A stretch of 55,765 nt of DNA, from assembly GCA_029881335.1 (NCBI GenBank), contig JAOUMU010000005.1:1-55765 (forward strand), given 5' to 3'. The stretch's first letter is position 1; each line of letters begins with the position of its first letter. The notes under the pieces were generated by a model. That model made no database searches, was not told the origin of the DNA, and saw only the letters and a program-made list of their open reading frames with translations. The DNA comes from Nitrospinota bacterium. Lineage in GTDB: Bacteria; Nitrospinota_A; UBA7883. Of the stretch, positions 12,979 through 16,297 are shown in pieces. The position numbers and the translations under genes are program-made.

Positions 12979-13300
12979 CTCGTCCGCTCCACTGGTGTAT
13001 TGTGATTAAAGGCTTGGATCATATTAGGTTACGAAGAGGGCCAAGTCAATATAACCCGTTATGCCGGATGCCAGCGCTCTAGTCAGCGCAAGCTGGCCAC
13101 CCCGCCACCATGTTTTTTTCAAGATTCCATCTGGTAATATAATGCTATTAAAAATACTGGTTTGGATTCGACGCTGTCAAAACCGATCTTCGCCGATGGA
13201 ATAAGGCGCAAGCGACCTCTTGTCCCGAATGAACCGGCAGGAGGGCAGAAACGATGCGTGGAATTGAACCCTGCCACATTATTGATCCGCGGAAGGTGAA
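12979..13300. other. Divergent intergenic region proS / Cache-CheD lipoprotein
   Basis: This 322-bp stretch separates two divergently transcribed genes. It contains a perfect -10 hexamer TATAAT on the plus strand (13138-13143) without a convincing -35 at the right distance. A GGAAGGTG ribosome-binding site lies just before the ATG at 13301. No RNA gene or coding frame was recognised. Confidence 0.5.
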
Positions 13301-14839
13301 ATGAAGCGTATTGCTCTCCCGTTATTTACCCTGTTTCTTATTCCAGCCATTTTTTGTCTATACGGCTGCTCCCCCACTTCCGGTCACGAAGTCAAATCGG
13401 AGACCTTCGAGAAGTTGCGCTCCGTTCGGCGGGAGAGAAAGCTTCTGGTGGTGCAAAAGCTGGAGCGGATGAGGGGCAGGGTGAAGGATTCGGTTAATAA
13501 TTCCGTGCTCACCGGGGCGTTTGACAGGTTCAGGTCGCTTCTGGCCGACGGCGCGCTTCCGGCGGGGACGGGCGCGTACGAGGACAAGGATCTGGACCAG
13601 GAGTATCTGGAGAAGTATTACAATTTTTACGACATCCTTTTCATAGATCGTGACGGGCTGGTGTTTCACACCATGAGGCGGGAATCCGACCTGGGCAAGA
13701 ACATATTCAACAGCGACATTTCCTCCACATTGCTGGCGCAGACGCTGAAATCTGGGACGCTGGATGATTTTGTTGATTACCACTATTACTCCCCCTCCAG
13801 GGAGCCGGCCGCTTTTTTCATCGCTCCCATGAAGCGGCCCGATGGCTTGTCGGGATGGATCGTGTTCCAGCTCTCATCCGGGGCCTTGAGGGATATAATG
13901 TCCCAGGACACCAGCATGGGGAAAACGGCGGAAGTGTACCTGACCAATGAAAGCCACGTTATGCTAACCCAGTCGCGCTTGTTGCCGCAGGATACGGTCA
14001 TGAACCTGCGGGTGGAGACGGAGGCTGTGAGGCGGGCGATGGAGGCCGGGGAAGGGGATGGCGTCATTCTCGATTACCGCGGCGTGCGTGTCTTCAGTTC
14101 TTTCGAGAAATTCCAATTCGCCGGGGTCGGCTGGGTAATCATCGCCGAGATGGACGAGGATGAGGTAATCACCCGACAATTCATGGATGACAGAGACCGC
14201 CTATATAACGAGATTTTCAAGCGGCTACCCGCCGGGACGACCGCCGAGCCGCATCCTGAATTGTTGTATCAGGAGAGCGTACGGGTGGACATCAACGAGT
14301 ATGGCTCAGGGCGGGTCGATGATGTGATCTCCACCGCCGGAGTCACCACTTGTACGGCGGTGGTGATCCAGTATCCCGGGAAGTTCGCCTTCCTGGGTCA
14401 TATTTATCCGCTGGATGATGTGTATTTCGAGGGGTGGGAGAAATATATATTAGGCGTGTATTATGGGTTGTTCGGCAGCGTCCATGGTGACAGGGTGGCG
14501 GACCTGATGGGAAGAATGCTCCATGAGATCACATATTTTAATATCCACCCATCGGAGACCAGACGTCTGGAAGCGGTGCTGCTGGCCACCCACCGCAACA
14601 GCTTCAGGCGGATTACCGACAGGCTGCTGGATACGGGGCTTCTTCTTTCCCAGATCAGGATTGTCACACTCGATGGGATGAAATATCTGGACGTGGCTGT
14701 GGAGGTGGATAAGGCCTCGGTGGTGGCCCACTGGGTGGGCCCCGGCGGAAAAAAAGAATGGACCAACGCGGCGGGCGCTCCCACCCTGGACGTACTCGTA
14801 AAGGATATTATCGGATACGATTCCCAGGGACCAGTCTAG
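13301..14839 (+). CDS. Lipoprotein with Cache sensor domain and CheD-like C-terminal domain
   Basis: The 512-residue protein has a signal peptide ending in a lipobox (LYGC, Cys23) with Ser at +2, which predicts an outer-membrane lipoprotein. A helix (about 30-75) leads into a Cache-like ligand-binding region (about 95-285, with FIDRDGLVFHT, APMKRPDGLSGWIVFQL and AGVGWVIIAEMDEDE). No second membrane segment follows. The C-terminal part (about 325-480) matches the pattern of CheD, the chemoreceptor glutamine deamidase: Thr345-x5-Cys351, then His367 in GHIYPLDD, an amphipathic helix (RVADLMGRMLHEI), a strand, then HRNSFRRITDRLLDTGL, where CheD has a conserved Asn and a helix before its final sheet. 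The domain reading is by eye. The 3' end shares a CTAG with the convergent kinase gene. Confidence 0.75.
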   Translation: MKRIALPLFTLFLIPAIFCLYGCSPTSGHEVKSETFEKLRSVRRERKLLVVQKLERMRGRVKDSVNNSVLTGAFDRFRSLLADGALPAGTGAYEDKDLDQEYLEKYYNFYDILFIDRDGLVFHTMRRESDLGKNIFNSDISSTLLAQTLKSGTLDDFVDYHYYSPSREPAAFFIAPMKRPDGLSGWIVFQLSSGALRDIMSQDTSMGKTAEVYLTNESHVMLTQSRLLPQDTVMNLRVETEAVRRAMEAGEGDGVILDYRGVRVFSSFEKFQFAGVGWVIIAEMDEDEVITRQFMDDRDRLYNEIFKRLPAGTTAEPHPELLYQESVRVDINEYGSGRVDDVISTAGVTTCTAVVIQYPGKFAFLGHIYPLDDVYFEGWEKYILGVYYGLFGSVHGDRVADLMGRMLHEITYFNIHPSETRRLEAVLLATHRNSFRRITDRLLDTGLLLSQIRIVTLDGMKYLDVAVEVDKASVVAHWVGPGGKKEWTNAAGAPTLDVLVKDIIGYDSQGPV

Positions 14840-16224
14840 CAGGTAGCCTCTTCCGGGCCGCCCGTCAGGTCATCCGACGGGTCTGGCAGATGGACGTAGA
14901 ACACCGTACCGCTCCCTGGCTGGGACTTCACCCACATGGAGCCGCCATGGGCGGTGACAATCTCGTTAATCAACGACAGGCCTATCCCCCAGCCGGAGCT
15001 TGGGTCGATATTTTTTCCGCTGGTGTCCAGGGTGGCGGCCATGATTTTGGCCGCGCGCCTCTCGTCCATTCCTTCACCGCTATCCTCCACCGCCAGGGAG
15101 GCCCCATCATCGGGGGGACAAAATATCCGTACCTTTCCACCCGGGCCCGTATATCGGACAGCGTTGGAAACCAGGTTTTGTATCACATGGGTCAGCAACG
15201 CTTCGTCGCCGAAAACCTCCACGCCAGGGGGGATATCGTTTACCAGATCCACTTCCCTTTTTAGGGCCACCGGCGTCAATGCATTGGCGGCCTTTTCAGA
15301 GATGGCCCGCAGCCCCGTCCATTTCCGCCCTTTGAGCAACATACCACCATGCATTCCCTTAAGCCTCATCAGCAGATGGATGATTTCGCGCATCCTGTCC
15401 ACGCTCTGCCCCAGGCTTTCCACCATTTCCTTTTTCCGTCCTTCTTCCAGGTCAGCCCCGAAGTTCTTCATGATATCCACCACCGCCCTGATACTGGATA
15501 GGGGATCCTTCAGGTCGTGGGACACCAGGGCGACCAGCTTGTCTTTCATCTGCGTCGCCGCCGCCGCTTCGGTATTGGACTGTTCCAGCTCCATGATCAG
15601 GACGAATTCCCTCCGGGTGTGCTGATCGCTGAAATAGGAAACCACCATGCTCAGCGCCGCCGCCGAGGACATCAGGAATATCTTGTCCGCGGATTCGGCC
15701 AACCCGCCACCCAGCACAGGGCCCAGATATATAACAAGCATGGCAACCAGAATGAAAATGGTGGCCATTGCGAAGCTGAACAACAGCCGGCATAATGGCA
15801 CGCAGAAGACCACCAGCATCATTCCGGCGTAGTACACCACTTGCGGAGAGTTGTCTGATATATAGTCTATGGACAAAACGCTGGCGCCGGCGGCTATTAC
15901 CAGTGTGGACAAAAGCGCCTGGGCAAAAAGGCCCTGGAACCTTTCCCGGTAGGAGAATCCTATAATGCCGATGGCCAGAGGGATGATCAAGGCGAACCTT
16001 ATGAAGAACGCCACCAGCGCATGGTCCGAGACCTTTTGTATGTCCACCAGGAAGAAAAGAGCGTAGATCGCCACCCCCACCACAAGGCCCACCCGGACCG
16101 GCTTGCGGGTCTTGTCCGTGTAGTGATCCAGAAACTCCCGTTCCAAAGCGGGGTCCTCGAATTTCAGATGGAGCAACCCTCCTTGCATTCTGGCGCCAGC
16201 CGACGCTGGCTTACATTCCCCCAT
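14836..16224 (-). CDS. Membrane sensor histidine kinase, no PAS or receiver domain
   Basis: This kinase of about 462 residues has an N-terminal block of five to six membrane helices (about 42-200) that probably forms the sensor. A coiled linker follows, then HisKA with the phospho-acceptor in LVALVSHDLKDPLSS (His236), N-box (NLVSNAVRY), and G1/G2 boxes (DSGEGMDE, GWGIGLSL). The start at 16224 is chosen because AAAGGA lies 6-7 nt upstream; an in-frame ATG at 16251 would place that ribosome-binding site inside the gene. There is no partner response regulator next door. The convergent lipoprotein gene overlaps its stop by 4 nt. Confidence 0.88.
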   Translation of the reverse strand: MGECKPASAGARMQGGLLHLKFEDPALEREFLDHYTDKTRKPVRVGLVVGVAIYALFFLVDIQKVSDHALVAFFIRFALIIPLAIGIIGFSYRERFQGLFAQALLSTLVIAAGASVLSIDYISDNSPQVVYYAGMMLVVFCVPLCRLLFSFAMATIFILVAMLVIYLGPVLGGGLAESADKIFLMSSAAALSMVVSYFSDQHTRREFVLIMELEQSNTEAAAATQMKDKLVALVSHDLKDPLSSIRAVVDIMKNFGADLEEGRKKEMVESLGQSVDRMREIIHLLMRLKGMHGGMLLKGRKWTGLRAISEKAANALTPVALKREVDLVNDIPPGVEVFGDEALLTHVIQNLVSNAVRYTGPGGKVRIFCPPDDGASLAVEDSGEGMDERRAAKIMAATLDTSGKNIDPSSGWGIGLSLINEIVTAHGGSMWVKSQPGSGTVFYVHLPDPSDDLTGGPEEATC

Positions 16225-16297
16225 TTTTCTTCCTTTGCGCCATGGCGCCATGCGCCAGCGGTGTTCGCGGTTGCAGGGTTGGTTTAGTTCCTGAGGT

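Follow-up and report, generated by a model that had tools for sequence, protein, structure and literature searches.

A predicted extracytoplasmic CheD-like protein with a Cache sensor in a Nitrospinota bacterium and its relatives in two other phyla

The window analysed here is a whole stretch of DNA of 55,765 nucleotides from a Nitrospinota bacterium (GenBank assembly GCA_029881335.1, contig JAOUMU010000005.1, positions 1 to 55,765). The gene of interest is an open reading frame at 13301-14839 on the forward strand, which codes for a protein of 512 amino acid residues; its extent agrees with full-length homologues and their alignment. A candidate ribosome-binding site, GGAAGG, is located upstream of the ATG at 13291-13296. 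The protein chain consists of three parts in the order export signal, dCache sensor and CheD-like domain. On the same strand, the export signal (residues 1-22) and Cys23 are coded at 13301-13369, the sensor region (residues about 31-291) at 13391-14173, and the CheD-like domain of cysteine-hydrolase fold (residues about 327-480) at 14279-14740. A C-terminal extension past the CheD core, seen as a strand and a helix in the secondary structure of the predicted model, follows at 14741-14836. The comparisons presented below suggest that the protein is an exported member of the CheD/NTAN1 superfamily, which may act on chemoreceptors from the periplasm.

The N-terminus of the protein is positively charged and hydrophobic and ends in the sequence LYGC. 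This is the only hydrophobic segment of the chain: the Kyte-Doolittle maximum over 19 residues is 2.18, compared with 1.17 for the remainder of the protein. The first-pass annotation of this DNA had read LYGC as a lipobox, had seen no membrane segment after the sensor, and had placed the whole protein outside the cytoplasm. The hydropathy agrees with the second of these points, and the lipobox holds in part. Cys23, the +1 residue of LYGC and the probable site of lipidation, is invariant in all five homologues of the window's lineage. However, Tyr is found at position -2, and the PROSITE-type lipobox pattern is satisfied in one of the five lineage members, which is not the protein of the window. 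The lipobox is non-canonical, and lipidation is therefore likely, not proven; the sequence suggests that the protein is probably lipid-anchored via Cys23.

In homologues from two other phyla, the corresponding segment ends in AxA-like sites (SGRALA/GQ, SSARA/AN and VNA/EG, the slash marking the site) or in the lipoboxes TASC and ISGC. Since several relatives carry cleavable signal peptides, the CheD-like domain should be extracytoplasmic. The placement of the whole protein outside the cytoplasm was upheld by these sites and by the position of the Cache domain after the sole, N-terminal, hydrophobic segment. Both the Cache and the CheD-like domain are predicted with confidence to lie outside, whether the signal is cleaved or kept as an anchor.

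The Cache domain itself, also named at first pass, is genuine. In the protein of the window the Pfam family dCache_1 (PF02743) matches residues 92-282 with E=2.7e-5 and 24.3 bits, which is under the Pfam cut-off of 45 bits, while the homologues at L083 and L086 exceed this cut-off with 48.6 and 48.8 bits, respectively. The sensor part most closely resembles dCache sensors encoded at other sites of its own genome; the one of these that was inspected is part of a tandem-dCache methyl-accepting chemotaxis protein (MCP). The sensor is homologous to those of the dCache chemoreceptors (PF02743 with PF00015) of the same genome. However, the protein differs from these receptors in that its chain does not return to the membrane and has neither a HAMP nor a signalling domain; the CheD-like domain is found in their place.

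The C-terminal domain of about 185 residues has no match in Pfam or NCBIfam. The Pfam/NCBIfam CheD family (PF03975) matches none of 13 family members at E<=10, and a CheD search of the window's own genome returned only two genes, both other than the gene of the 512-residue protein. The relationship to CheD appears when profiles are compared with profiles. The five-member family profile was aligned with 28 CheD sequences with an hhalign score of 40.7, where 300 column shuffles reach at most 24.1; the profile of 18 members gives a score of 32.1 over 133 columns, with a shuffled maximum of 21.1. In the profile-profile alignment the Thr, Cys and His and an N-terminal Glu are in register with CheD. 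When the family profile was run on hundreds of genomes, the weak matches outside the family were CheD proteins with the single exception of a secreted NTAN1-like protein (L103). The best match of the family hidden Markov model (HMM) to all sequences of the PDB is Thermotoga CheD (E 0.044), and in the reciprocal HMM test the best family members score above shuffled decoys. By these sequence comparisons the likeness to CheD is beyond chance.

The fold points in the same direction. An AlphaFold model of the C-terminal domain, calculated from 18 family sequences with no CheD sequence in the input alignment, has a predicted local distance difference test score (pLDDT) of 87 and a predicted template-modelling score (pTM) of 0.83; a full-length model with five homologues (pLDDT 42) was not used. 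A Foldseek comparison of the domain model with the PDB places CheD 2f9z_C first, with E 2.3e-8 and a template-modelling (TM) score of 0.69 on the target, followed by NTAN1, YfiH, CNF1 and YlmD in that order. The first-pass annotation had suggested such a structural comparison, and with CheD as the top match among solved structures, a CheD-type fold of the domain is predicted with confidence. The model has the alpha-beta-beta sandwich fold and the Cys/His dyad of the CNF1/YfiH-like cysteine hydrolase superfamily as defined in PMC7022378. An accidental likeness to CheD, or the misreading of a cytoplasmic CheD, would agree with the lack of Pfam and NCBIfam matches. However, the fold match, the shuffle controls, the invariant Cys and His residues described below and the export signals in homologues make this explanation hardly credible.

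The putative catalytic residues had been proposed from a Thr-x5-Cys pattern with a His sixteen residues further on. They were confirmed at the positions given, Thr345 (14333-14335), Cys351 (14351-14353) and His367 (14399-14401). Conservation was scored on an alignment of 18 sequences of the C-terminal domain, with homologues from three phyla. The invariant residues are Asp330, Glu333, Gly347, Cys351, Thr352, His367 and Asp372, together with a few structural residues; Glu333 (14297-14299) aligns with the GE near the N-terminus of CheD. Cys351, the predicted nucleophile, and His367, the predicted general base, are kept in 18 of 18 sequences at 26-40% identity, as would be expected if the earlier assignment is correct. 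Position 345, which corresponds to Thr21 in CheD and Ser69 in NTAN1 (PMC7022378), is occupied by Thr in all members except two, which have Ser. His431 is missing in one member.

The mature chains of all five lineage members contain exactly two Cys residues, Cys23 and Cys351; further cysteines are present in family members of the other phyla. Structural cysteines outside the cytoplasm seldom occur as a lone residue of this kind in the mature chain. Because Cys351 is an invariant, unpaired residue in a protein that is predicted to be exported, it appears best explained as a reactive thiol.

The same domain could also be a repurposed CheD fold without catalytic activity. The protein would then be a periplasmic ligand-binding co-receptor docking on chemoreceptors, with a CheD-like domain that only binds. 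It is generally known that CheD itself binds receptors and CheC, and 2F9Z is a structure of the CheC-CheD complex. In addition, two related genomes (L058 in G004:C89 and L059 in G012:C5) carry CheR fused to a CheD-like domain with no recognisable catalytic Cys. However, neither Cys351 nor His367 varies across the three phyla while other CheD motifs have been lost, and a mere binder has no need of a lone free Cys. We therefore consider a purely binding function unlikely. In the degenerate CheD-like domain of the two CheR fusions, the match to CheD does not begin until position 20.

It is useful to compare the exported family with its nearest relatives. CheD (PF03975; T. maritima 2F9Z) has in common with it the fold, the Thr-x5-Cys pattern, a Glu near the domain start and, in some lineages, the linkage to MCP and CheW genes. 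However, the His residue follows the Cys at +17 in all 28 CheD sequences examined and at +16 in the exported family. CheD is cytoplasmic, while the exported family is fused to a dCache sensor and has an additional C-terminal strand and helix. Since PF03975 fails to match, the GGA and IGxRN motifs of CheD are absent and the protein is predicted not to be cytoplasmic, we place it in an exported sister family, new within the CheD/NTAN1 superfamily, and not in CheD itself. The genome of the window also encodes ordinary CheD, in the form of CheD-receiver fusions. The CheD proteins of this phylum are mostly such fusions of about 315 residues (PF03975 with Response_reg; L001:1234-2295, L002:1342-2298 and L080:15084-16022), and not free proteins.

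NTAN1 (PF14736; 6A0E) resembles the family in the superfamily fold (second in the Foldseek order), in the Cys/His/Ser-Thr triad, in the Thr-Cys before the nucleophile and in the presence of a C-terminal extension. However, it is a human protein which has no sensor domain and no significant sequence match to the exported family. Membership of the NTAN1 family was rejected, as PF14736 has no match at E<=10 in the window's own genome, nor in the family members. YfiH/YlmD and the catalytic domain of CNF1 have the superfamily fold in common with the model by Foldseek, but their match is much weaker. The active site of YfiH is a zinc site (PMC7022378). The NTAN1-like exception noted above (L103:1315-1980, G290) is a protein of 222 residues with a Sec-type signal peptide, the Thr-x5-Cys / His pattern, a weak match to the NTAN1 family (E 0.0025) and no Cache domain. 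It is a further exported member of the superfamily.

These relationships allow a different substrate for an exported amidohydrolase: the N-terminal Asn of peptides as for NTAN1, cell-wall peptides or small amides. In that case the Cache domain would report nutrient status, and chemotaxis would be just one context. A substrate of this type, an N-terminal or peptide amide, has to be taken seriously as an alternative because the Thr-Thr-Cys before the nucleophile, which resembles Thr73-Thr74-Cys75 of NTAN1 (PMC7022378), and the C-terminal extension recall that enzyme. NTAN1 is also the second-best fold match, UDP-MurNAc is bound in YfiH structures, and the majority of the family loci are not beside chemoreceptors. 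However, no member matches the NTAN1 family by sequence, whereas the profile matches CheD, and some members are located in operons with MCP and CheW genes. This explanation is considered rather improbable.

Three phyla contain homologues of the same architecture, with 25 loci in total. Five belong to the window's lineage, eight come from the phylum of G048 and twelve from that of G046; in this last group the split gene of G922 counts once, and a few members are truncated at the end of a contig. The lineage members are the genome of the window, G002 (a Nitrospinota metagenome-assembled genome, 82% identity), G001, G009 and G018. The family is rare. The first broad search gave matches in 11 of 385 genomes, with only six true family members, and in the phylum of G046 a family match is present in 4 of 395 genomes.

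At nine of the 25 loci, in two phyla (L087, L111-L115, L126, L127 and L132), the gene is located in a same-strand cluster with MCP and/or CheW genes, about 15-150 bases from the nearest partner; at several of the loci without such linkage the contig breaks off. The gene lies directly 3' of a tandem-dCache MCP in L087, is flanked by two MCPs in L111, comes after CheW and MCP in L112 and after MCP and CheW in L132, and precedes an MCP in L113, L115 and L127. In L126 the order is CheW, family gene, MCP. The cluster of L114 starts with CheB and the family gene, followed by MCP, CheW, the gene of a receiver protein and CheA. By a rough estimate, given tens of MCP genes among thousands, the linkage is far above the expectation for random neighbours. 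It favours a role in chemotaxis.

Six of the linked MCPs (L111-L115 and L126) have a common repeated helical ligand-binding module with weak HBM/4HB matches, which is longer and has an additional copy in the MCPs of L111 and L112. Chemoreceptors of more than one family, several in number, have this module. In a search for a shared deamidation target, conserved Gln/Asn residues were seen in the linked chemoreceptors, for example in FK[AS]Q of the modules. No deamidation site is claimed, because one member has Met at one of these conserved places. In the linked MCPs of L087, L111-L115 and L126 the C-terminus is an acidic, VIPxDDxDFKDF-type tail, which we take to resemble the aromatic C-terminal tethers for CheR/CheB.

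The gene is isolated within the window, where it is divergent from proS and convergent with the gene of a membrane histidine kinase (HisKA and HATPase_c) at 14836-16251 on the reverse strand, which overlaps its end by 4 bases. A search of the window with Rfam gave one tRNA and nothing else. A partnership of the protein with this kinase might be suggested by their adjacency in every one of the genus's three genomes. However, the gene lacks this kinase as a neighbour in G009, in G018 and in every other lineage. Because the orientation is convergent and the synteny is kept only within the genus, the kinase is probably outside the system, and such a partnership is very unlikely.

The conserved active-site residues, together with the operon linkage to chemoreceptors and CheW in the two other phyla, allow us to propose that the protein belongs to the CheD/NTAN1 superfamily as an exported cysteine amidohydrolase that is gated by its Cache domain and tunes chemoreceptors from the periplasm. 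The probability of this reading is estimated at roughly 0.55. The exported and probably lipid-anchored protein would sense a small molecule outside the cytoplasm with its Cache domain. The C-terminal domain would be a cysteine amidohydrolase with the predicted triad Cys351-His367-Thr345, and occupancy of the Cache domain may gate or position it. The CheD-like domain would then deamidate, otherwise modify, or dock on Gln/Asn residues of the ligand-binding domain of a chemoreceptor. This would tune chemotaxis from the periplasm, just as CheD tunes it from the cytoplasm. Within the same mechanism, the target could alternatively be an envelope component closely associated with chemoreceptors. The copy in the window would act with an unlinked chemoreceptor.

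Several observations weigh against this proposal. The GGA loop of CheD is absent from the family, and A-x-H (A[TPVN]H) is found in its place. The IGxRN motif is absent as well: the Asn-containing helix, which had been said at first pass to line up with CheD, does align by position, but its Asn is not conserved. The domain order from Cache to CheD-like domain does not demonstrate gating, and outside the cytoplasm a catalytic Cys needs to be protected from oxidation if it is to stay reduced. Chemotaxis genes are not found beside the gene in the window's genome or beside the other lineage copies. The helical sensor module of the linked MCPs was not found in G000-G002, G009 and G018; the partner in the window's genome, if any, must therefore be another receptor.

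The proposal could be extended to a second, periplasmic arm of covalent chemoreceptor modification, in which an exported, Cache-gated deamidase would rewrite Gln/Asn residues in the ligand-binding domain of its partner. This would alter sensing, and not the cytoplasmic methylation helices. Such an extension is rather doubtful.

Literature searches, which covered open-access sources only, did not turn up any account of a CheD that is exported or fused to a Cache domain. We know of no CheD-type enzyme outside the cytoplasm, and to our knowledge the covalent modification of chemoreceptors by CheR, CheB and CheD is confined to their cytoplasmic part. Cys351, His367 and the co-operonic candidate substrate offer handles for experiments. 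The family would add an exported bacterial relative to a superfamily whose more familiar members are CheD, NTAN1 and YfiH. If the proposed function is true, bacteria could also modify their receptors, or some other target in the envelope, on the side where the ligand binds.
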